A stretch of 64,000 bases of DNA from a bacterium (GTDB lineage Bacteria; Armatimonadota; Fimbriimonadia; Fimbriimonadales; Fimbriimonadaceae), in NCBI GenBank assembly GCA_013823945.1, contig PNMZ01000002.1, forward strand, positions 496,001 to 560,000, written 5' to 3'. Below the pieces are notes generated by a model that saw nothing but the letters and a program-made list of their open reading frames with translations, was not told where the DNA came from and searched no databases. The stretch's first letter is position 1; each line of letters begins with the position of its first letter. Shown here piece after piece: positions 739-25,935 of this stretch. The translations under genes and the position numbers were made by a program.

Positions 739-1170
739 ATGAAAAAAGAAAACTTGATTCTTGTTGTCATCGCGCTTGGATTCCTCTTTCTGGTGTTGGA
801 AACTCGCCATTCCCATGCGGGTACGTGGGGTAACCACCCGACAGCGTACATCCCGGTCGCCGCGTGTGGCCTGGGATTCCTTGTTTGCCTTGCTGGGCTA
901 GCTGCTGAGAAAAAGCTGGCCACTGCTCTTGGATTCATCATGATCGGCTTATCCGCCGTCGGCCCCTTGGGAGTTTTCTATCACACCAAAGGGGATTTTC
1001 AACAGCTCCAAACTATGCTCACGTCAAATGTCAGAGAAGAGCGACTGCTCCGACAAGATAATCAAATGGGTGGCCCATTCGCCGAAAAACCCTTACTGGC
1101 ACCGATGAGCATTAGCGGACTTGCCCTTATTTCTGGGATTCTAATCCTCGGAAATCGGCGGAAAAGTTAG
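739..1170 (+). CDS. Small polytopic membrane protein, unknown function
   Basis: A 143-residue protein with a hydrophobic N-terminal segment (about 5-22), two central segments (about 36-56 and 62-80) and a C-terminal segment (about 120-137), ending in a short basic tail (NRRKS). A hydrophilic loop of roughly 30 residues with Gln and Arg lies between the third and last segments. There is no motif I recognise. It begins 2 bases after the stop of the J-like gene, so it is most likely the last gene of that operon. Confidence 0.65.
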
Positions 1171-1183
1171 CCTTCCCGAATGC

Positions 1184-1189
1184 CATAAT
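1184..1189 (+). promoter_or_regulatory. -10 box of leuB, leaderless type
   Basis: CATAAT ends 6 bases before the leuB ATG, so transcription should begin at or next to the start codon. No Shine-Dalgarno sequence and no clear -35 box are visible. Confidence 0.55.
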
Positions 1190-1195
1190 CCAGGC

Positions 1196-2269
1196 ATGTC
1201 ATTTAAGGTTGCCGTTTTGCCCGGCGATGGAATTGGACCGGAAGTAACGGCGGAGGCCGTCAAAGTTCTCAAAGCAACGGGCCTCAGCATAGAGTTTGAA
1301 GAAGCCCCCTTCGGTGGAGCCGGGTACGACGACTGCGGTGAACCTCTCCCGACCAAAACCCTTGATCTCTGCAAGGCGAGCGATGCAATCCTTCTTGGCG
1401 CAGTGGGCGGACCAAAATGGGACAACCTCGAACCCATCACAAAACGCCCGGAGATCGGAGGGCTTCTTCCTATTCGCCGAGAACTCAATCTTTACGCTAA
1501 CCTCCGCCCCGCCAAAACCCTCAAACCGCTGATCCACGCTTCACCGCTTAAGGAAGGCCGAAGCATGATGGATTTGATTGTCGTCCGCGAATTAACTGGG
1601 GGTATTTATTTTGGTGAGCCGCGAGGTCGGAGAGACAACGGCGATACGGCATATGATACATGCCTCTACACTCGTGCCGAAGTTGACCGAATCACCCGAC
1701 GAGGATTTGAAATCGCTTTGCAACGGGGTCGAAAACTTTGTGCAGTAGACAAAAGCAATGTCCTAGAAACCAGCCGGCTTTGGCGAGAAGTCGTCACCGA
1801 AATAGCCACCGAATTTCCCCAAGTCTCAACCAGTTTCATGCTGATTGACAACTGTGCCATGCAATTGATCCGGGATCCCGGTCAGTTCGATGTCATTCTC
1901 ACTGAGAATATGTTCGGCGACATTTTGAGCGACGAAGCGTCAATGATTACTGGATCACTTGGGCTCCTTCCGAGCGCATCCATCAGCGATCCGAAAAACG
2001 GTGTTGTTTTTGGTCTTTATGAGCCAGTTCATGGTTCAGCACCCGATATTGCTGGTCAGGGCCGAGCAAACCCCTTAGCCGCAATCCTGAGCGCGGCGAT
2101 GATGCTTCAGTACACTTTCAACGATACAGAGTCAGCATTGCGAATAGAAAATGCGGTTGAGGCTGCCCTCAATCAGAAGCTCCGCACGGCGGACATATTT
2201 GAAAAAGGAACCGAGATCATCACCACTTCCGAGATGGGTGATGCCATTGTCCGAGAATTAATGGCCTAA
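1196..2269 (+). CDS. leuB: 3-isopropylmalate dehydrogenase
   Basis: This enzyme oxidises and decarboxylates 3-isopropylmalate to 2-oxoisocaproate with NAD in leucine synthesis (cytosol). The 357 residues match the family length. Visible signatures are the N-terminal GDGIGPEV, the substrate-loop [13 protein letters not shown], the metal-binding region [19 protein letters not shown] and the NAD-binding [19 protein letters not shown]. The ATG at 1196 is preceded at 6 bases by CATAAT, which favours a leaderless mRNA. No other leu gene is adjacent; ilvE lies about 58 kb away in the window, so the branched-chain pathway is dispersed. Confidence 0.97.
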
Positions 2270-2284
2270 GGATTCAAAGTGAAG

Positions 2285-2311
2285 TGGGGTGCCTTACTCA
2301 AGGGCACCCCA
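2285..2311. terminator. Hairpin between convergent genes, possible bidirectional terminator
   Basis: A 9-bp perfect stem (TGGGGTGCC and its complement, 2285-2293 with 2303-2311) lies between the stop of leuB and the stop of the convergent sponge-like gene. A clear T-run is absent on either side, so it may be a Rho-assisted or weak terminator. Confidence 0.5.
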
Positions 2312-2338
2312 ACAACACTGGATGGGGATGAAATCAAT

Positions 2339-2653
2339 CTAATCTGTGCTGGAGTGTTTTGAGCGAGAGCCGATCAACCCCTGTTTTTCGCGTCGTCTTC
2401 GCCGCAAAAGCAATGCTTCCCTTGCCAGATCAAGGTGGTACAGAGCCGTTGCATTTTCCTCGCACGAAAGCTCGCGCCCCTGGAAATCCAACAGCTTTTC
2501 TTGCAGAACTCCGATGACATCTTCAATTCGACATCCGTTCGTTCCAACATGATCAGGGTCACCCCCATGTTGAAATTGTATTCTGATGAACTCCGACTCG
2601 ATGAGGGCATCGCTGCCGTCCATGTGACGGAACTTCTCCATGTTTTCACTCAT
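2339..2653 (-). CDS. Small protein resembling the Acb2/Tad1 cyclic-nucleotide sponge family
   Basis: The 104-residue product has, from about residue 24, the order IRIQFQHGG, VGTNGCRIEDVIGVL, SCEENATALYHLDLAREAL and a final R-R-R-x-x-x-G-x-x-G segment. This is the layout I know from phage-type Acb2/Tad1 helical-hairpin proteins: FQHG, VGxNG, a Cys-x-x-Asn before a Leu-rich helix, then Arg-rich and Gly-x-x-Gly near the end. Phage members bind cyclic di- or trinucleotides (Acb2) or cyclic ADP-ribose isomers (Tad1) and so block CBASS or Thoeris defence. No phage genes surround this one. It lies 26 bases after an 88-residue gene and both are downstream of a c-di-AMP riboswitch. Function here is inference; the family call is from pattern memory. 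Confidence 0.72.
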   Translation of the reverse strand: MSENMEKFRHMDGSDALIESEFIRIQFQHGGDPDHVGTNGCRIEDVIGVLQEKLLDFQGRELSCEENATALYHLDLAREALLLRRRRREKQGLIGSRSKHSSTD

Positions 2654-2679
2654 ATTCGCAACTAGCGCTAATGAGCTCG

Positions 2680-2946
2680 TTAGTGGATTGTCTCAGATCG
2701 GAATTCTTTCCGTTTCGACTTCAGTTTCAAGATCGTTTCAGTAAGCTGAGCAATCTCTTTTCGTCGTCCCGGGCCAAGCGTTTCCATTTCGTTTGAAGAC
2801 AGTCGCTTAAACGATGCTTCCATCCGGTCGCGGATCATGCCGGCTTCATCAACCAATTCTTCAAACTTTGTTGCCTTTTCTTGCGTTGGGACTTCAGATC
2901 GCTCAACAATGCTGGCTTTCCGCATAATCTGGCTCACGAAGCTCAT
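2680..2946 (-). CDS. 88-residue helical protein of unknown function, first gene after the c-di-AMP riboswitch
   Basis: A highly charged, Glu/Lys/Arg-rich helical protein with no transmembrane segment, no Cys pairs and no known motif; residues 20-80 probably form two helices (a hairpin) broken around LGPGRRKE. The ATG at 2946 follows GAGGTG at a spacing of about 8 bases, so unlike many neighbours it has a leader and a ribosome-binding site. It is the first gene of a two-gene transcript with the Acb2/Tad1-like protein. A role as partner of that protein, or in c-di-AMP physiology, is suggested only by the shared riboswitch. Confidence 0.65.
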   Translation of the reverse strand: MSFVSQIMRKASIVERSEVPTQEKATKFEELVDEAGMIRDRMEASFKRLSSNEMETLGPGRRKEIAQLTETILKLKSKRKEFRSETIH

Positions 2947-2996
2947 CTGGTCACCTCAACAACTACGAACGGGCCTGATTGTTTTGTGGTTTTCAT
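2943..2996 (-). CDS. Possible 17-residue upstream peptide between riboswitch and 88-residue gene
   Basis: An ATG just after the aptamer opens a 17-codon frame (MKTTKQSGPFVVVEVTR) whose TGA overlaps the ATG of the next gene as ATGA. This arrangement would couple translation of the 88-residue gene to the peptide. There is no strong Shine-Dalgarno sequence before it, so it may be chance. Confidence 0.3.
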   Translation of the reverse strand: MKTTKQSGPFVVVEVTR

Positions 2997-3002
2997 GGTG
3001 TC

Positions 3003-3129
3003 TTGATTGCGCCTACGAGGTTAGCTGCCGGGTTAGGTTCAAGATTGACCTGAGCGAATCCTTCGCTCTTCACCCCTGCTAGTTCCTAGCGGTGGTTCCC
3101 CCGTTCTGGGCATTGCCCAAATTCGACGT
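3003..3129 (-). promoter_or_regulatory. c-di-AMP riboswitch (ydaO-yuaA type)
   Basis: Read on the minus strand, the segment contains in order a small GGGC-AAT-GCCC hairpin, GAACGGGGGAACCA, a hairpin, GGGGTGAA, a GAGCGAA/TTCGCTC hairpin, an AGGT/ACCT stem and CAGCTAACCTCGTAGGCG. These are the conserved blocks of the ydaO-yuaA aptamer, in the right order and spacing; CGTC at the 5' end can pair with GGCG at the 3' end to close P1. A TAGAAT box just upstream would start transcription at the aptamer edge. Known members are mostly OFF switches that bind c-di-AMP. I see no strong terminator between aptamer and the first gene, so the expression platform is unclear; it may act on translation. Confidence 0.9.
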
Positions 3130-3135
3130 ACCTAA

Positions 3136-3141
3136 ATTCTA
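3136..3141 (-). promoter_or_regulatory. -10 box upstream of the riboswitch
   Basis: TAGAAT on the minus strand, about 7 bases before the first base of the aptamer near 3129. It identifies the riboswitch and the two small genes as their own transcript, separate from the VirK-like gene. Confidence 0.5.
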
Positions 3142-3158
3142 CCAGATTTCAATCAAGT

Positions 3159-3614
3159 TTAGTTTGCAACGAAAAAGGATATGCCCTGCTCGTCCTTCCC
3201 GTTGCTGATCTTGCCCTGGAACGACTCGTCCATCAAAATTTCGTAATCCTTGGTCGCCAAGTACCGGGCCGTGATCTCAACCAAGTTGTCTTCATAGATG
3301 CGGAATCGAACATAGTTGTGAACGGTTCCGTAGCTAGGATGTGCAATCAAAACGGTCTTAGATGTCGCGATGTAGGCTTTTTCATTCTTCACAACCCCAC
3401 GATCAAACCACTCCCAACTGTCAATTTTCATCCCACCAATCGCCTTGGGTGCGGGCACCACGTCATCGCCCAAAAACAAGAACGTTTTGGAGTAATCCAC
3501 GACAACCTTGACCTCATTTCCAGCTTTCAGAGCCGATAGGACATCCTCAAATGAGTTGAGTCGAGAAGGTGCCAGTGCAACCGCTGCCAAAACAAGGGGA
3601 AGTGTGGAAATCAC
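3159..3614 (-). CDS. VirK-family exported protein
   Basis: The product has an N-terminal signal-like stretch (ISTLPLVLAAVALA) and then the VirK pattern: SFEDVLSALKAGNEVKVVVDY, PKAIGGMKIDSWEWFDRG, KAYIATSKTVLIAHP and YVRFRIYEDNLVEITARYL. VirK family proteins are small, probably periplasmic or exported, and their biochemical role is not settled. A longer frame could start at a TTG at 3629, but CATAAT ends 6 bases before the GTG at 3614, and that start also gives a clean signal peptide, so I chose 3614 (about 151 residues). It is divergent from the hydrolase at 3661 and separated by a tiny shared promoter region. Confidence 0.85.
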   Translation of the reverse strand: MISTLPLVLAAVALAPSRLNSFEDVLSALKAGNEVKVVVDYSKTFLFLGDDVVPAPKAIGGMKIDSWEWFDRGVVKNEKAYIATSKTVLIAHPSYGTVHNYVRFRIYEDNLVEITARYLATKDYEILMDESFQGKISNGKDEQGISFFVAN

Positions 3615-3619
3615 AGTTG

Positions 3620-3626
3620 CATTATG
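3620..3626 (-). promoter_or_regulatory. -10 box of the VirK-like gene, leaderless type
   Basis: CATAAT on the minus strand (3621-3626) ends 6 bases before the GTG chosen as start at 3614. It lies inside the longer reading frame that would begin with TTG at 3629, arguing against that longer start. Confidence 0.5.
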
Positions 3627-3648
3627 CAACGGATTCCCATGAGTCCTG

Positions 3649-3654
3649 TATAAT
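3649..3654 (+). promoter_or_regulatory. -10 box of the alpha/beta hydrolase, leaderless type
   Basis: A perfect TATAAT ends 6 bases before the GTG at 3661. It is divergent from the CATAAT of the VirK-like gene; the two boxes are only 22 bases apart. Confidence 0.6.
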
Positions 3655-3660
3655 TAGACA

Positions 3661-4647
3661 GTGATCAAAATACGTGAACTGCTTCCCGCCTGCATCCTCG
3701 TCATGGTGACTTGCCAAGGATGGGCAAGTTCTGCTCCTCAAGAAGTCACATTTCCAGGAAAAGGTATGGAACTGAGTGGAACATTGACTATCTCCTCAGA
3801 TGCCAAACAAGCTCCTGCAGTCCTCCTTATGCCCGGCAGCGGCCCAACGGATCGGAATGGCAACCAACCCGGATTGCAGACCAATCTTCTCTTGGATCTC
3901 AGCGGTTCACTTGTAAAGAATGGCTATGCCACACTTCGATTCGACAAGCGACCGGTGGCTCGGTACCAGAGCGTTTGGCCGAAAACGAATCCGGAGATCA
4001 GCAAATTTTTCAGCTTTGAAAATCACCTTGCCGATGCCAAAGCCGCCTACGAATTTCTCAAATCCCGCCCCGAAGTAAACCCCGAAAGGATTTATATCCT
4101 CGGTCACAGCGAAGGTGGATTAATCGCCAATCAAATTGCTCCTGATCTCAAACCCGCCGGACTCATTCTCCTTGGATCTCCGGGCCGCTCTATGGCAGAA
4201 ATTCTTCGCGACCAGCTGATGAGAAGCATTTCCGCTATCCAAGACGAATCGCTCAAGAAAACACTGACATCCGACCTTGATCGAGCATTGACCCAACTCA
4301 CAAAGGAACCGGTAAGTCCAACTGATTTACATCCAGGATTGCAATCACTGTTCAGTCCTACAAACGCAGATATCCTCCACGGCTACTTCACGTCCGATCC
4401 GATCGCAAAGGCAAAGCACTATGCAGGCCGTGTGTTCATCGCGAACGGTGAAATGGACGTTCAAATCAGCGCCATCTCAGACGCTCAGCCGCTTCACGAA
4501 GCCTACGGAGCAAAATCCCATCTTGAAGTTATTCCCAATGCCAGCCATAACTTCAAATCCGTGACCAAACCGACAGACCCCGGCTTCGCCGGTCCAGTTC
4601 ATCCCAAACTCATTACAAGTCTGCTCGATTGGCTAAAAGTCAAATAG
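3661..4647 (+). CDS. Exported alpha/beta hydrolase
   Basis: A 328-residue protein with a signal peptide (about 1-23, ending near WASSA). Family features are the oxyanion-side motif MPGSGPTDRNGN, the nucleophile elbow GHSEGG (Ser150), an acid in NGEMD (Asp266) and the catalytic His in NASHNF (His296). This is the layout of bacterial serine hydrolases related to S33/DLH-like esterases; the true substrate cannot be read from sequence. The GTG start is supported by TATAAT six bases upstream. The pseudopilin gene follows after 21 bases and could share the transcript. Confidence 0.9.
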   Translation: MIKIRELLPACILVMVTCQGWASSAPQEVTFPGKGMELSGTLTISSDAKQAPAVLLMPGSGPTDRNGNQPGLQTNLLLDLSGSLVKNGYATLRFDKRPVARYQSVWPKTNPEISKFFSFENHLADAKAAYEFLKSRPEVNPERIYILGHSEGGLIANQIAPDLKPAGLILLGSPGRSMAEILRDQLMRSISAIQDESLKKTLTSDLDRALTQLTKEPVSPTDLHPGLQSLFSPTNADILHGYFTSDPIAKAKHYAGRVFIANGEMDVQISAISDAQPLHEAYGAKSHLEVIPNASHNFKSVTKPTDPGFAGPVHPKLITSLLDWLKVK

Positions 4648-4668
4648 AAAACCACCGAAAATCAGCTC

Positions 4669-5349
4669 GTGCCCCAAACTAAACGAGCCGGTTTCACTCT
4701 CACGGAGATGCTCTACGCGTCGTTTGTGGGCACAATTTTGCTCGGAAGTTCTTCGAGTCTCTACTTCCTTGTCTCAAAGCGTACAAATGAAGACGCTGGT
4801 CTCAACCTCGCAATCGCTCAATCCACTCAGCTCGCAGATGAAATGCAGGAAGTCATCGAAAACGCCTTGACCTGTTCAGTTGGTTCTTCGGGTAAGCGGA
4901 GTTACATGAGCTGCACTTTGCCCACCAACGGAACAGATCAAGACAACGACGGGGTCATGGATCGTTTTCCGCCAGCCTCAATCACGCCGGATGGACTGCC
5001 CCAATATATGGCAGGTCAAACTGTCGCCTTTTACTGGAGCGACAATTCTGGAGAAATCTCCACAGGAGGCACCTTCAAAGATGGCCCGGACTTGTGGCGA
5101 AGTTTCAGTGCTTCAACGGGTGGGAATACCGGAGCCGATCGATTCTGGTCACGAATCGGTGATACCACGCGTTGGACTCTAATTGACGATGTCAACTTAA
5201 TGACCGACTTTGGCAACCGATCGACCACCATAACGATCAAATCTCGGGTCCTCAACCGATCCCCTCGCCGAGCGACTTCCTCCGACGCTCCAGATCAAAA
5301 AGCCGAATACACCCTGACCCGAGTCATCCCGTGGCGCAACGCTAATTAA
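4669..5349 (+). CDS. Prepilin-type (pseudopilin) protein
   Basis: The N-terminus RAGFTLTEMLYASFVGTILL is a type III signal: cleavage by prepilin peptidase would fall after Gly8, leaving Phe1 and Glu5 (numbered in the mature protein), followed by one hydrophobic helix. The remaining about 190 residues form a globular domain with few hydrophobic stretches and acidic patches, one of them (DQDNDGVMD) like a calcium-binding turn. It probably belongs to a type IV pilus or type II secretion pseudopilus; no other pilus gene is in the window. Start is GTG. The last 4 bases overlap the convergent oppC-like gene. Confidence 0.88.
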   Translation: MPQTKRAGFTLTEMLYASFVGTILLGSSSSLYFLVSKRTNEDAGLNLAIAQSTQLADEMQEVIENALTCSVGSSGKRSYMSCTLPTNGTDQDNDGVMDRFPPASITPDGLPQYMAGQTVAFYWSDNSGEISTGGTFKDGPDLWRSFSASTGGNTGADRFWSRIGDTTRWTLIDDVNLMTDFGNRSTTITIKSRVLNRSPRRATSSDAPDQKAEYTLTRVIPWRNAN

Positions 5350-6167
5350 ATCGCCTGATTCTTCTTAGGATCAACCAAGGCGCGCAAGCCATCGCCGACA
5401 AAATTTAGCGCAAAGATCGTCAGCGAGAGGATCAAACAAGGCCACAAAAGCATCAGAGGATAGGAGTTCTTGTTCAAGTTCCCCACCGCAATCATTTGTC
5501 CCCAACTCGGTTCGGGAGGCTGAACTCCAATCCCAAGAAAACTTAGCGTACTCTCCGCCAAGATGGTCGCAGCAACATCCACCATCATGACCGCGAGAAT
5601 GACCCCCCAGAGGTGCGGCAAGATGTGCTTGATAACTAAGTAAGGGGTTTTCGCACCCATCGCCTGAGCCGCCACAACAAATTCCCGATCTTTAAGCGTG
5701 GCAATCTGGTTCTTCACCAACCGGGCCATCGCGGGCCATGCCGTGAATGACAAACCTATGATTACCGGGCCAACACCCATCTGGAAGACACCAACGATCA
5801 TGATCGCAAGTAGCAAATCTGGGAATGCAAACATTCCATCTGTGAACCGCTGAATCGGAATGCTGATCCATTTCGGCGCATAAACACTTGCAACGCCAAC
5901 GATCAAGCCCACTGTCACCGCAATACTTTGAACAACCAGTCCAATGACCAACGAGGTTCGCGCACCGTATGCCAACCTCGCAAAAATGTCCCGACCTTGC
6001 TCATCGGTTCCAAACCAGAACTGATCGCTCGGATAAAGGAATGGCCCTCCGACTTTAACGTCAAAAGGATGCCGCATGTTCGGCCCGACAATGGCAAAAA
6101 TCACGAGCAAAACCAAGTAACCAACCCCAATCCAGAAAAGTGGACTCAAACCGGACTTCCGCTTCAT
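5346..6167 (-). CDS. Peptide/nickel-type ABC transporter permease (DppC/OppC family)
   Basis: This 273-residue inner-membrane protein has the N-terminal OppC helix (about 9-28), then a periplasmic part ending in FGTDEQGRDIFARLAYGARTSL, a hallmark of DppC/OppC, and the EAA-like cytoplasmic loop AAQAMGAKTPYLVIKHILPH. With the OppB-type partner, which it overlaps by 4 bases, it should form the channel of an oligopeptide or similar importer. The periplasmic binding protein and ATPases are not in this window, so substrate cannot be assigned. Confidence 0.94.
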   Translation of the reverse strand: MKRKSGLSPLFWIGVGYLVLLVIFAIVGPNMRHPFDVKVGGPFLYPSDQFWFGTDEQGRDIFARLAYGARTSLVIGLVVQSIAVTVGLIVGVASVYAPKWISIPIQRFTDGMFAFPDLLLAIMIVGVFQMGVGPVIIGLSFTAWPAMARLVKNQIATLKDREFVVAAQAMGAKTPYLVIKHILPHLWGVILAVMMVDVAATILAESTLSFLGIGVQPPEPSWGQMIAVGNLNKNSYPLMLLWPCLILSLTIFALNFVGDGLRALVDPKKNQAI

Positions 6168-20066: not shown

Positions 20067-21227
20067 TCAGCCACGCAAAAGTTGCTTGCTGATCACGAGC
20101 CGCTGAATTTCAGAGCAACCTTCACCGATTTCTGTAAGCTTCGCATCGCGCCACAGCTTTTCGACCAGGTAATCAAAAGTCATTCCGCGACCACCGTGAA
20201 TCTGTATGGCACGATTTGTCACCCGATTTGCGGTTTCACTTGCGTAGAGCTTGGCATAGCTGGACTGAAGCACGATGCTTTCACCCCGGTCAAACATTGC
20301 TGCCCCTTTAAACAGAAGCAACTTAGCGGCTTCAATTTCCATCGCTGAATCCGCAAGCATATTCTGAACCGACTGCATATCTGCTAAGCGACGATTGAAC
20401 TGCTCCCGCTCTTGCGAGTACTCAAGGGCAAGCTCAAATGCCTTTTCGGCAATCCCAACTGCCATTGCGGCAATTCCAAGGCGACCGCGGTACAGCAACC
20501 CAATTGCCTGCTCAAAGGTGCAGGGGGTGTGCCATGCCCGCGCATTTGTCAAGGAAAATCGAACGGTATTGCTTGCACGGACTCCAACCGTATGGATTCG
20601 CTCTGTTAATTCAAAACCTGGCTGATCAGTTTCCAGTAGGAATGCTGACAGCTCTTTTTCTCCTGTTCGAGCCACCAATACGATAAGGTCAGCTTTTCCT
20701 CCGTTGGTGATGAACATCTTTTCTCCATTGACCTGCCACCAACCTTCTTCGCCGCTAATGGGAGTCGCAACTGTCTTAACTCGTCGAGCATCTGAACCAG
20801 CATCTGGTTCCGTCAGTCCCCAGGCCAGCTTCAATGTCCCTTCCATTGCACGCTTCAGATACTTGTCGCGCTGCTCTTGACTTCCAAAGTGAACGAGGTG
20901 CCCTATTACCAGGGCATTGATTGCCGCCACGTTCATCGAAAGTGCAGGGTCGCCTTTCGCAAGTTCCAAACACATTTCCACATAGGCTCGGCAACTTCGG
21001 TAAGTACCCCCCATTTCCGCCGGAACGACCATATCCAACATTCCCGCTTTCCCTAGTTTCGGCCAGATGTCATCAGGGAACGCTGTGTTATCTTCCCATT
21101 CGCGTGTATTCGGTAAAACTTCTTTGGCTACGAACTCACGCACTGAGTCCATAAAAGCCGCTTCATCGCCATTGATGTTTGGGATAATCGCATCCTGCGA
21201 TTCTGCTCCCACAAGTGTTTGAGCCAT
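20067..21227 (-). CDS. Acyl-CoA dehydrogenase
   Basis: This 386-residue flavoenzyme introduces the alpha,beta-double bond into an acyl-CoA and passes electrons to the electron transfer flavoprotein (ETF), which is encoded at 25941-27568. Signatures are AWGLTEPDAGSDA and GEKMFITNGGKADLIV in the FAD/substrate middle domain, and QSSYAKLYASETANRVTNRAIQIHGGRGMTFDYLVEKLWRDA-type C-terminal residues (seen across 315-360), with the base Glu near EIGEGCSEIQ. The chain-length class cannot be read. TAGAAT lies 8 bases before the ATG, with GGGGAAG between. It is divergent from the B12-domain regulator, which is a candidate controller. Confidence 0.94.
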   Translation of the reverse strand: MAQTLVGAESQDAIIPNINGDEAAFMDSVREFVAKEVLPNTREWEDNTAFPDDIWPKLGKAGMLDMVVPAEMGGTYRSCRAYVEMCLELAKGDPALSMNVAAINALVIGHLVHFGSQEQRDKYLKRAMEGTLKLAWGLTEPDAGSDARRVKTVATPISGEEGWWQVNGEKMFITNGGKADLIVLVARTGEKELSAFLLETDQPGFELTERIHTVGVRASNTVRFSLTNARAWHTPCTFEQAIGLLYRGRLGIAAMAVGIAEKAFELALEYSQEREQFNRRLADMQSVQNMLADSAMEIEAAKLLLFKGAAMFDRGESIVLQSSYAKLYASETANRVTNRAIQIHGGRGMTFDYLVEKLWRDAKLTEIGEGCSEIQRLVISKQLLRG

Positions 21228-21235
21228 ACTTCCCC

Positions 21236-21241
21236 ATTCTA
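21236..21241 (-). promoter_or_regulatory. -10 box of the acyl-CoA dehydrogenase gene
   Basis: TAGAAT on the minus strand, 8 bases before the ATG at 21227. Confidence 0.45.
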
Positions 21242-21310
21242 CTGGGTCAATTCCTTCGATATCTGCATGGCCCCGGTCAACAATTCAGCAATTCACACAT
21301 CTATCCGAAC

Positions 21311-21316
21311 TATAAT
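21311..21316 (+). promoter_or_regulatory. -10 box of the B12-domain regulator gene
   Basis: TATAAT about 43 bases before the ATG at 21360. The leader of roughly 37 bases contains an imperfect dyad (CCCGAA...TTCCGGG), which could be an operator or a small hairpin. Confidence 0.5.
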
Positions 21317-21359
21317 ATAAGTCCCGAATGATTCACCGTTCCGGGCAAATGAGTGAAAC

Positions 21360-22334
21360 ATGATTGATTTGATCAAGGAACTAGGCGAACCTTCCAAGCG
21401 CACCATCCTCGCGCTGATCAAAGCATCACCAAAAAGTGTTACGGATATTGTTGATGCAACCGGTATGAAGCAGCCGAATGTTTCAAATCATTTGGCTCGC
21501 ATGAAGCAAAAGGGCATCGTTCGCTCATCGAAAGTTGGACGCCAGGTCTTTTATTCCCTTGCTTCAATTGAAATCGCCGAAGCGCTGCAGGGTCTCGTCA
21601 ATGCCGATTTCGATTCTGCCAATTACCAAATCGAACTCAATGATGATCTAGTTAAGCAATTTTGCCGCTCTGCCACGAATGGTGACGAGCTAGAATGCAC
21701 CGCTATCGTTGACCGGCTCCTTGGAACCCGTCATGAAATCATCGACATTTACGAAGAGTTGTTCGGCAGTTCTCTCCAACTCATCGGAACCTGGTGGCAA
21801 GTCGGGGCAATTGATGTCGGCCAAGAGCATTTGGCGAGTGCAATTGTTGAACGGCTCATGGCCCGAGCACTCCATCACAGCGCACCACCAAAAACAACCG
21901 CCCTAGCAGCTGTCCTCGGTTGCCCTCCCGGCAACTGGCACTCCCTCGGACTTCGCATGGTGAGTGACATGCTCCGACTGAGCGGCTGGCGGAGCTACTT
22001 CCTCGGTGCAAATGTCCCAATCGATTCGTTCATCAGTGCGATTCGAGAGCATAAACCCAAAGCCGCAATGTTCAGCTGTCCGATCGCAGAACAACTCCCA
22101 GAGGTTGATGAGCTACTGGCTGCCCTCGTGAAATACAGATCAGAGAATTTTCCATTCACCATTGTTGCCGGTGGCTTTGCAATCATTGAGCGAAAAGACC
22201 ACTACCTTTCCAGCGGAGTTGATTTCGTCGGAGAAAACCTTAAGCACTTTCGTTCTGGGTTCATCGAACAGATTAGGACTGCCGATGATTCTATCTCTGA
22301 AGCACCGAAAGTCCGAAACGGTCATAAAAATTAG
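21360..22334 (+). CDS. ArsR-type HTH regulator fused to a CarH-like B12-binding photoreceptor module
   Basis: Residues about 1-85 form an ArsR-type winged helix (TDIVDATGMKQPNVSNHLARM as recognition region, then GRQVFYSLA wing). Residues about 100-180 form a helical bundle containing W146-x9-E156-H157, exactly the Wx9EH motif of CarH/CarA photoreceptors that contacts adenosylcobalamin. Residues about 180-300 are a Rossmann-type B12-binding domain with H194 in GNWHSLGLRMVSDML as the likely lower axial ligand. Known CarH proteins have a MerR-type HTH; here an ArsR-type domain takes that place. It should release DNA in light when AdoCbl is photolysed. The divergent gene is an acyl-CoA dehydrogenase. 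324 residues. Confidence 0.9.
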   Translation: MIDLIKELGEPSKRTILALIKASPKSVTDIVDATGMKQPNVSNHLARMKQKGIVRSSKVGRQVFYSLASIEIAEALQGLVNADFDSANYQIELNDDLVKQFCRSATNGDELECTAIVDRLLGTRHEIIDIYEELFGSSLQLIGTWWQVGAIDVGQEHLASAIVERLMARALHHSAPPKTTALAAVLGCPPGNWHSLGLRMVSDMLRLSGWRSYFLGANVPIDSFISAIREHKPKAAMFSCPIAEQLPEVDELLAALVKYRSENFPFTIVAGGFAIIERKDHYLSSGVDFVGENLKHFRSGFIEQIRTADDSISEAPKVRNGHKN

Positions 22335-22404: not shown

Positions 22405-22752
22405 TTAGCCGACAACGGTCTTAACGAATGAGCTGAATGCTTTGGGATCGTGGATCGCCATTTCACTCAGCATTTTGCGGTTCACATCAATCCCTTTGGA
22501 TGACATCGCATGGATCAATTGACCATACTTAACGCCTTCAAGTCGGCAAGCCGCCGAAATTCGGGCAATCCAAAGGCGACGAAAATCGCGCTTCTTTGCT
22601 CTTCGGTCTCGAAAAGCGTATTGACCGCTTTTCATTACCTGTTCGTGGGCATTCTTAAAAACGTTCTTCTTGCGACCGTAATAACCTTTGGCCTGCGAGA
22701 GAAGTTTCTTATGCCGTTTGTGGCGCATCAATCCGCGCTTTACACGTGCCAT
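22405..22752 (-). CDS. rplT: 50S ribosomal protein L20
   Basis: A 115-residue, strongly basic ribosomal protein. The typical N-terminus ARVKRGLMRHKRHKKLLSQA and LWIARISAACRLEGVKYGQLIHAM are seen. L20 binds 23S rRNA early in large-subunit assembly and in several bacteria represses its own operon by binding the mRNA. It is the last gene of infC-rpmI-rplT, and the ATG is preceded by a GAGGATA-type site. A 92-base spacer separates it from rpmI. Confidence 0.98.
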   Translation of the reverse strand: MARVKRGLMRHKRHKKLLSQAKGYYGRKKNVFKNAHEQVMKSGQYAFRDRRAKKRDFRRLWIARISAACRLEGVKYGQLIHAMSSKGIDVNRKMLSEMAIHDPKAFSSFVKTVVG

Positions 22753-23739: not shown

Positions 23740-25935
23740 ATGGGTAACATCACCCAAGCCGTTATGATGGATCATTGCCGCCGCGTCTGCGTCATCGGAG
23801 CCGGGACGATGGGGTCAGGGATTGCCGCCCACCTCGCCAATCTTGGTTTCGATGTAACCATTCTTGAACAAACAAAGCATCTCGCCGACGAAAAGTTGGC
23901 TCACGCGGCAAAGCTTCGCCCGCCCCATTTCTTCCTTCCCGGAACCGCAAACACAATCAAAACAGGTTCGATTTCTGATGACCTCGACGCCATCTGCAAT
24001 GCAGATTGGGTCTGCGAAGCAATCATCGAAAAGCTTGACGCAAAAAAGTCCCTCTTTGAACTCATTGACCCACTCATTCGCGAAGAAGCATTCATATCCA
24101 CCAACACCAGCGGACTTGAAATCAATCTCCTCATTGAAGGACGCTCCGATTCATTCCGGCGCAAGTTCGTCGGTACTCACTTCTTTAACCCCCCTCGCTA
24201 CCTCAAGCTCCTTGAATTGATCCCGACCCAAGAAACAGACCCGGCCGTGATTGATGCGTATGTTAAATTTTTCCACGACTCAGCGGCCCGACGATGTGTC
24301 GTTGTCAAAGACACCCCTGGGTTTATTGCCAACCGCTACGGTATGTGGAGCATGTATCACGCCGTCCAAGTGGCAGAAAAACTTGGTCTTACAATTGAAG
24401 AAGTTGATGCCATCACAGGCCCATTCATTGGTCGACCAAAATCTGCCAGCTTCCGGCTCAATGATCTTGTCGGACTCGACATCATGGAAGATATCGCCAG
24501 GAACTTGATCGAGCGATGCCCTCATGATCCGCATACTGATGTCCTCAATACTCCCAAAAGCATTGCCTATCTCATCGAGAAAGGATGGATCGGATCGAAA
24601 GCGGGACAAGGCTTCTATAAAAAAGAGGGCAATCAATTTGTCAGTTTTGATCTCAAGACCCACGCTTATCGCGAAACCCTAGCTCCCAAACTGCCAACCC
24701 TGGATGAACTCGGTCGCCTTCCGTTTGGAGAACGCCTCCGAACCGCTTTAGCTGATAAGTCCGAAGTGGGAGAATTTCTCCGGCTCTATCTCAAGCCTGC
24801 CCTTCAATACGCTGACTCAATAAAAGCTGAAATCGCCCATAACGTACGCGATTTTGACCGAGTGATGCAGTGGGGATTCGGCTGGGAGCATGGTCCCTTC
24901 GCAACGATTGATGCGATTGGAGCCGAAAATCTCGAAATCTCCGCGAAGCCTTACTTTCAAGGCCCGGAAATCCAAAGTAACGCGGGAATATACTTCACTC
25001 CAGTTTCCGAACCAGAATTCGCGTCCATTCAGGACTTCCCCATCCTGAGTCAACACGAAGGATTTAATGTTCGTGACATGGGAGACGGAGTCCATGCTAT
25101 TACCACAACATCGAAAATGGGGGTCATCGCCCCAGCTTTGGTCAAGTCACTTACCGAATATCTTGATTCTGGATCGAGCCAGAGGTTTGTTCTGACCAGC
25201 GAAGCCCGAGTATTCAGTGCTGGATTTGATCTGAAATTCTTTGTCGACCGCATCGAAGCAAACGATTTCGACGCCATTGACCAAGCAATCGCTGACTTTC
25301 AAAATCTCAACTCCACAATCGGTCGATTCCCCTCCGTTGCTGCCGTTTGGGGCTTCTGTATCGGTGGCGGATTCGAGCTCGCCGCGGGATGCACTTTTAT
25401 CGCCGCTTCGCCAGAGACTCAAATTGGGCTACCCGAAGCGTTGGTTGGCCTTATTCCGGGCGGCGCCGGTAATGCGGTCATGCGCCTGCGTGCTCAAGCC
25501 GGCGGAGCAAAAAGACTTGTCGAAGCGGCCCAGCTCCTCGCGACTGGCACCTTGTCCACCAATGCTGACGACGCCCGGCGAATTGGATACCTTCGAGACG
25601 AAGACATCACCGTATACCACCCCGACCGCCTTCTGACCGAAGCCAAATCCCTCGTCCTCAAAGCAGAACCGCTTGTCCGAGCAAGTTGGCAAGAAATTAA
25701 CGGCCCCGTCAAAGGCATGATCGATCGAATGCAGCAGGAACTCGTAAAACTAGGTGTCCTCAGCAATCACGACCAAGTCATCAATGATAAAGTGAAGCAC
25801 GTCTTCGCTGATGCAACCAGCTGGGAAGATGCAAACGATCGAGAGCGAAAGGCTTTTGTTGAGCTTTGTCGCGAAGGTCTCAGTCTGGCTCGAATGCGTC
25901 ACATGTTGGAAAACAACAAGCCCCTCCGGAACTAA
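23740..25935 (+). CDS. fadN: Fused 3-hydroxyacyl-CoA dehydrogenase and enoyl-CoA hydratase (FadN type)
   Basis: This 731-residue protein performs two steps of beta-oxidation. The HAD half is first (about 12-400): VCVIGAGTMGSGIAAHLANL is the NAD-binding loop, followed by FVGTHFFNPPRYLKLLELIP with the catalytic His and PGFIANRYG. The hydratase half (about 440-650) has FSAGFDLKF (oxyanion hole), FCIGGGFELAAGCTFIAA and LPEALVGLIPGGAGN with both catalytic Glu positions. The order dehydrogenase-then-hydratase matches Bacillus FadN, opposite to E. coli FadB. A thiolase gene is not adjacent; etfB follows after 5 bases. The first ATG (23740) or one at 23764 may be the start. Confidence 0.94.
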   Translation: MGNITQAVMMDHCRRVCVIGAGTMGSGIAAHLANLGFDVTILEQTKHLADEKLAHAAKLRPPHFFLPGTANTIKTGSISDDLDAICNADWVCEAIIEKLDAKKSLFELIDPLIREEAFISTNTSGLEINLLIEGRSDSFRRKFVGTHFFNPPRYLKLLELIPTQETDPAVIDAYVKFFHDSAARRCVVVKDTPGFIANRYGMWSMYHAVQVAEKLGLTIEEVDAITGPFIGRPKSASFRLNDLVGLDIMEDIARNLIERCPHDPHTDVLNTPKSIAYLIEKGWIGSKAGQGFYKKEGNQFVSFDLKTHAYRETLAPKLPTLDELGRLPFGERLRTALADKSEVGEFLRLYLKPALQYADSIKAEIAHNVRDFDRVMQWGFGWEHGPFATIDAIGAENLEISAKPYFQGPEIQSNAGIYFTPVSEPEFASIQDFPILSQHEGFNVRDMGDGVHAITTTSKMGVIAPALVKSLTEYLDSGSSQRFVLTSEARVFSAGFDLKFFVDRIEANDFDAIDQAIADFQNLNSTIGRFPSVAAVWGFCIGGGFELAAGCTFIAASPETQIGLPEALVGLIPGGAGNAVMRLRAQAGGAKRLVEAAQLLATGTLSTNADDARRIGYLRDEDITVYHPDRLLTEAKSLVLKAEPLVRASWQEINGPVKGMIDRMQQELVKLGVLSNHDQVINDKVKHVFADATSWEDANDRERKAFVELCREGLSLARMRHMLENNKPLRN

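Follow-up and report, generated by a model that had tools for sequence, protein, structure and literature searches.

The window considered here, the whole stretch of 64,000 nucleotides, carries at positions 21360-22334 (+) an open reading frame with an ATG start that encodes a regulator of 324 residues, in which an ArsR-type DNA-binding head is joined to a B12-binding module (hereafter ArsR-B12). An intergenic region (21228-21359) is common to this gene and to a divergent acyl-CoA dehydrogenase gene (20067-21227, -; Pfam Acyl-CoA_dh_1/N/M), a conserved neighbour. The gene for ribosomal protein L20 (rplT, named by eye; 22405-22752, -) flanks the regulator gene in convergent orientation and is a marker of the conserved locus, and a FadB-like 3-hydroxyacyl-CoA dehydrogenase/enoyl-CoA hydratase is encoded nearby (23740-25935, +; Pfam and NCBIfam).

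Three Pfam domains make up the protein. Residues 11-56 (21390-21527, +) form an ArsR winged helix (HTH_5, 40.9 bits against a cut-off of 22), residues 99-169 (21654-21866, +) the four-helix cap containing W146, E156 and H157 (B12-binding_2, 39.9 bits against 23), and residues 184-290 (21909-22229, +) a Rossmann domain with the axial ligand H194 in an NxHxxG motif (B12-binding, 61.2 bits against 32.1). The NCBIfam model for ArsR/SmtB regulators (NF033788) scores 68.8 bits against a cut-off of 55, while that for CarH (NF052513) matches residues 129-247 only, at 46.2 bits against 400. The MerR head of CarH is absent, and the protein is not a member of the CarH family.

The original prediction had described a CarH-like B12 module behind an ArsR-type instead of a MerR-type head, and had proposed structure prediction and comparison with CarH as a check. 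Both halves of that description are borne out by the domain scores and by an AlphaFold model (31-row alignment, mean pLDDT 89.6). Residues 1-89 of the model fit CzrA of the ArsR family (Z 15.4, 1.7 A over 87 residues), and residues 91-308 fit the photocobilin structure 8j2w (Z 25.8, 2.0 A over 207 residues), CtMerR (8jbt, Z 24.2) and CarH (Z 20.2). MetH and other corrinoid domains likewise fit the B12 module (Z about 16-21), and the fold alone is therefore no proof of light sensing.

Distribution and descent of the ArsR-B12 architecture

Among 291 genomes of the phylum, 60 are matched with an E-value of at most 1e-20, giving 61 rows. Six of these rows span the B12 part only, which leaves 55 genomes with the ArsR and B12 parts joined: 43 inside the family of the window and 12 outside it, the copy in G123 being cut by a contig end. 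Recurrence in 55 genomes confirms that the two-part protein is real and not a product of chance. In a tree of the B12 domain (60 rows) every ArsR-type row falls on one side of a branch with support of 90 and the MerR-type rows lie on another branch with support of 97, with two long-branch warnings. The ArsR-type rows form one clade, so that a single fusion is enough to account for the architecture.

Beyond this set, a search of genome contigs returned six loci, all from Armatimonadetes; the named relatives belong to Fimbriimonadaceae or Armatimonadetes, the nearest (CP021423.1) being 95% identical. Twenty plasmid records also matched, and in the 15 listed no match reaches the ArsR part, each beginning at residue 90 or later. 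A literature search found no paper on an ArsR-type CarH. Light-responsive cobalamin-binding domains (CBDs) fused to HTH domains are mentioned in PMC11796333, in whose main text the word ArsR does not occur.

A predicted palindromic operator and its putative targets

Palindromic EM on 47 regulator promoters, with near-duplicates removed, produced de novo a predicted operator of the form ATATATCA-n8-TGATATAT. Its log-likelihood over 22 columns was 115.4, against 39.1-54.5 in six dinucleotide shuffles, with 25 start seeds for the real set and 12 for the shuffles. Of 54 regulator promoters, including those on which the matrix was trained, 24 score above the 99% level for random sequence, and the centre of the predicted operator often lies 25-27 bp before the regulator start. 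The recognition helix of the protein is equally constant (Q38, P39, N40, S42 and H44 are invariant in 54 of 54 aligned members), which fits a conserved operator. A 10-bp core, TGATATATCA, was considered as the whole operator and rejected: it occurs exactly in 3/54 promoters and with at most two mismatches in 19/54, and the inverted repeat with its n8 spacer explains more.

A scan of 2.12 Mb (overlaps included) gave 19 distinct sites above 17 bits, of which 11 lie in promoters of the regulator and eight elsewhere. The count takes in loci chosen because a genome-wide model search had found a site there. Loci chosen for other reasons were the fasciclin locus (L083), the cassette locus of genome G129 (L206), crtB in G121 and folE2 in G151. 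Three shuffles of 1.51 Mb contained no site above 17 bits, and the best random match in 3.16 Mb at the GC content of the window reached 16.6 bits. Training of the matrix used regulator promoters alone; the sequence model R1 also included the fasciclin site. In L082 of G048 (851-5885) the genes divergent from the regulator look like nrdR and a class II (B12-dependent) ribonucleotide reductase, both judged by eye. A 16.8-bit match before this nrdR resembles an NrdR box and is left out of the targets.

Each of the eight sites outside regulator promoters precedes a photoprotection, redox or sigma-factor gene: folE2 in the genome of the window (G000) and its closest relative (G151), crtB in G121, an ECF sigma factor gene in G092 and in G097, and in G129 a fasciclin gene, an old yellow enzyme gene and an amine oxidase-DUF1365-CFA cassette of the furan-fatty-acid type. 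A genome-wide search of 16 genomes with the sequence model gave, among the matches listed, nine distinct places at E <= 1 in six genomes and none in the other ten. Three of the nine are regulator promoters, and six lie directly upstream of genes, namely the same three in G129, the ECF sigma genes of G092 and G097, and folE2 of G000. In G129 a 24.4-bit double palindrome stands between the regulator and the fasciclin gene and the cassette operator, at a locus also picked independently, scores 22.7 bits. The folE2 site is the strongest in the genome of the window (20.9 bits; 19.4 bits in G151), and is identical between the two genomes at 30/32 positions against 37/60 in the stretch just upstream. 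The ECF sigma site is similarly conserved between G092 and G097 (22/24 against 40/60), and the site in G121 (18.1 bits) lies directly before crtB. The two ECF sigma genes (L209 in G092 and L210 in G097, both 1508-2128, +) have operators of 19.4 and 21.4 bits just upstream.

Strong sites at targets of the light type (folate, carotenoid, furan-fatty-acid, sigma factor) are thus found in G000, G151, G092, G097, G121 and G129, with each target in few genomes. Control of folE2 was rejected as a family-wide trait (2/42 genomes with the regulator against 0/33 without, p 0.50, from 76 genomes found, G123 being dropped as too short). Operator control of carotenoid genes was likewise rejected as a general rule: among 40 phytoene synthase loci, 36 with the regulator and four without, only that of G121 has a crtB site (1/36). 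Genome G110 has regulator and cassette with no operator (best match 7.6 bits). In the genome of the window a carotenoid cluster (L136 on contig C5, 6519-13326; no operator match) contains phytoene synthase with two desaturase-like genes, along with a Caroten_synth protein, a glycosyltransferase and a gene that by eye is acyltransferase-like.

In G129 all three operators share one register over promoter-like sequences (TTGACA-N18-AATAAT, TTGATA-N17-TATACT and TTGCAA-N17-TATAAT). Promoter scores of at least 10 of 12 are reached at 8/1000 random positions; the other five non-regulator operators lack a comparably clear promoter, scoring 7-8 of 12. Because the G129 operators overlie good promoters, a repressor is the simplest role there.

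The original prediction had named the divergent acyl-CoA dehydrogenase, rather than carotenoid genes, as the target and suggested that light or B12 controls fatty-acid oxidation. The neighbour itself stands: a divergent acyl-CoA dehydrogenase lies within 300 bp of the regulator at 33/43 family loci (recounted by tblastn, as crude gene calling misplaces genes in GC-rich loci), relatives carry the palindromic operator inside the intergenic region common to both genes, and the FadB-like gene is close by. Against control of this gene and of the nearby beta-oxidation genes as the main function, the adjacency is found at 0/12 loci outside the family, and the dehydrogenase is kept without the regulator, being present in 78/85 family genomes against 43 for the regulator. 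Seventeen of 30 inspected loci are without the regulator, and in at least six of these the regulator slot is empty and rplT immediately precedes the dehydrogenase gene. The loci scanned show no strong operator at the FadB-like gene. The own intergenic match of the window, TAATATAAGTCCCGAATGATTCAC (21313-21336, adjoining TATAAT at 21311-21316), is a weak candidate: its 8.1 bits are close to the 95% level for random sequence, so that in this genome the acyl-CoA dehydrogenase is a putative target. The strong distant operators precede photoprotection, redox and sigma-factor genes, and the "rather than" of the prediction is not supported. Photoprotection targets have the better support. The evidence does not bear out fatty-acid oxidation as the main target, and we consider that reading unlikely.

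Possible links to known light responses

Two sister genomes of the same genus that do not have ArsR-B12 (G153 and G154) encode a MerR-type CarH with the Wx9EH motif, divergent from a cassette ordered fasciclin - amine oxidase - DUF1365 - CFA synthase - peroxiredoxin-like - DUF1295 (the first four named from Pfam homology, the last two by eye). In G129 the last five genes of this cassette follow the operator in the same order, and the fasciclin gene adjoins the ArsR-B12 gene. DUF1365 is carried by UfaO of furan-fatty-acid synthesis, a pathway that PMC7380195 describes in an R. sphaeroides chrR deletion. Light-induced LitR targets reported in PMC9758184 include photolyase, UfaM and FolE, and Streptomyces LitR is described as acting through the sigma factor LitS (PMC12705666). 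As these sources present them, the folate, furan-fatty-acid and sigma-factor targets match what LitR/CarH systems are known to control, and the operators before the ECF sigma genes of G092 and G097 suggest a possible LitR-LitS-like relay.

Among 85 family genomes, phytoene synthase occurs in 36/43 with the regulator against 16/42 without (one phytoene synthase fragment left out), and photolyase in 41/43 against 24/42; in genomes at least 90% complete the figures are 35/40 against 9/30 and 38/40 against 20/30. MerR-type CarH tends to occur in genomes without the regulator (4/43 against 10/42, p 0.086). When the tree is controlled for (built from one gene, acyl-CoA dehydrogenase, in 76/85 genomes), only five independent pairs are available, and the association is not significant (phytoene synthase, 3.3 pairs in the same direction and 0.1 in the other).

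Methylmalonyl-CoA mutase is also somewhat commoner with the regulator (16/43 against 5/42, p 0.011), which would suit a sensor of B12 availability rather than light, in which metabolism linked to B12 is adjusted by AdoCbl or by a different form of cobalamin. The intact B12 module, a MetH in the genome of the window and the by-eye nrdR and class II ribonucleotide reductase beside the G048 regulator point the same way. The genome of the window, however, has no methylmalonyl-CoA mutase, and its only two B12-binding (PF02310) proteins are the regulator and a MetH-like protein. The discounted nrdR match aside, no strong operator precedes a B12-linked gene, and the predicted targets are of light-regulon type. 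Such a sensor therefore seems quite improbable. The MetH-like gene (L134 on contig C4, 1084-2802, +) encodes 572 residues that by eye correspond to the C-terminal half of MetH as a separate gene, without EH at the corresponding place.

The predicted cobalamin site and the proposed mechanism

The published signature of light-responsive cobalamin domains comprises GxxW, EH, GxxH and GxxxP (PMC11796333), and is complete in the window protein as G143/W146, E156/H157, G191/H194 and G216/P220. W146, E156, H157 and H194 lie exactly where they were first placed, and in alignments W146 pairs with the signature Trp of the solved photocobilin and CtMerR B12 domains. AdoCbl binding and light sensing, judged plausible from these residues, remain so: an adenosyltransferase is encoded in 80/85 family genomes, that of the window among them, and the putative targets are of light type. 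Loss of Wx9EH or of the His in orthologues had been named as counter-evidence, and here the outcome is divided. E156 and H157 are each kept in 53/54 aligned members and H194 in 52/54, but Trp at position 146 is missing in 42/54 (Tyr 37, Trp 12, Phe 2, other 3), and an intact Wx9EH is not general in the family. Position 145 is Trp in 36/54, and most relatives read GxWY.

That loss of Trp recalls CarA, the Myxococcus CarH paralogue described as retaining EH, missing the Trp and being B12-independent (PMC9304148). Together with N192 in place of the classic Asp/Glu and a G083 member whose E, H and axial His are gone but whose DNA-binding helix stays, it could suggest an ArsR regulator that keeps its B12 domain for dimerisation or a protein partner; this is very improbable, as the window protein keeps its Trp, E, H and the axial His persist in 52-53/54 members (though CarA too keeps EH and the B12 motif), and G083, which also lacks phytoene synthase, shows what loss looks like.

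We lean instead towards a B12-dependent, probably light-responsive repressor with an ArsR head, a palindromic operator and a regulon of LitR/CarH type, and the window protein probably works like CarH. The ArsR winged helix would read the palindrome where it overlaps core promoters, and the CarH/photocobilin-type module would bind AdoCbl through H194, while W146, E156 and H157 would surround the adenosyl group. If it behaves as CarH does, the protein with AdoCbl bound would keep promoters shut in the dark and let go of the DNA once light breaks the Co-C bond. Protective functions involving folate, carotenoids, membrane lipids and redox chemistry would make up the regulon, reached in some relatives by way of an ECF sigma factor; the regulator's own gene and the divergent acyl-CoA dehydrogenase probably belong to it too.

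With CarH and LitR the window protein shares the fold of the B12 module and Wx9EH with the axial His, and its putative targets would be of the same type (folate, carotenoid, furan-fatty-acid, sigma factor). It differs in its HTH_5 head where they have a MerR head, in Gln147 after W146 where CarH has its light-state His, in NxH (N192, with H194 and G197 present) for the classic D/ExHxxG, and in a predicted operator that is an inverted repeat, whereas CarH is described as binding 11-bp direct repeats (PMC8156234; PMC9304148). The closest solved structures of the module are those of photocobilins and CtMerR, with which it shares the full signature. SasPcob is reported to have the same Gln after the signature Trp (PMC11796333); unlike the photocobilins (SasPcob, AbDPcob), the window protein has no bilin domain and is fused to an ArsR head. 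ArsR/SmtB proteins such as CzrA, NmtR and SmtB share the winged-helix head and the probable palindromic operator, but in the window protein residues 1-101 contain no Cys, so that the Cys metal ligands of ArsR/SmtB are not found, and a B12 module follows the head. Most of the ArsR-B12 family resembles CarA in keeping EH and losing Trp; the window protein differs from CarA in its Trp and its ArsR head.

More broadly, and here we see an even chance, ArsR-B12 may be a second family of B12 photoreceptor-repressors, in which a photocobilin-like module and an ArsR head were joined once in Armatimonadota and took over the photoprotection regulon of CarH/LitR, a palindrome replacing direct repeats; most members would have Tyr for the capping Trp and be missed by published light signatures. 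If so, neither the DNA-binding fold of MerR nor its operator geometry is required for a B12 light switch, and the needs of the photoreceptor module can be separated from what the MerR head adds. Members with Tyr for Trp would show whether the capping Trp is essential for the light response, optogenetics would gain a repressor that responds to green light and acts on simple palindromic operators, and Fimbriimonadaceae would have a first predicted light regulon. The G083 member (L080, 7679-8686, -), without E156, H157 and the axial His and with its ArsR helix intact, looks like a B12-free derivative, parallel to CarA.
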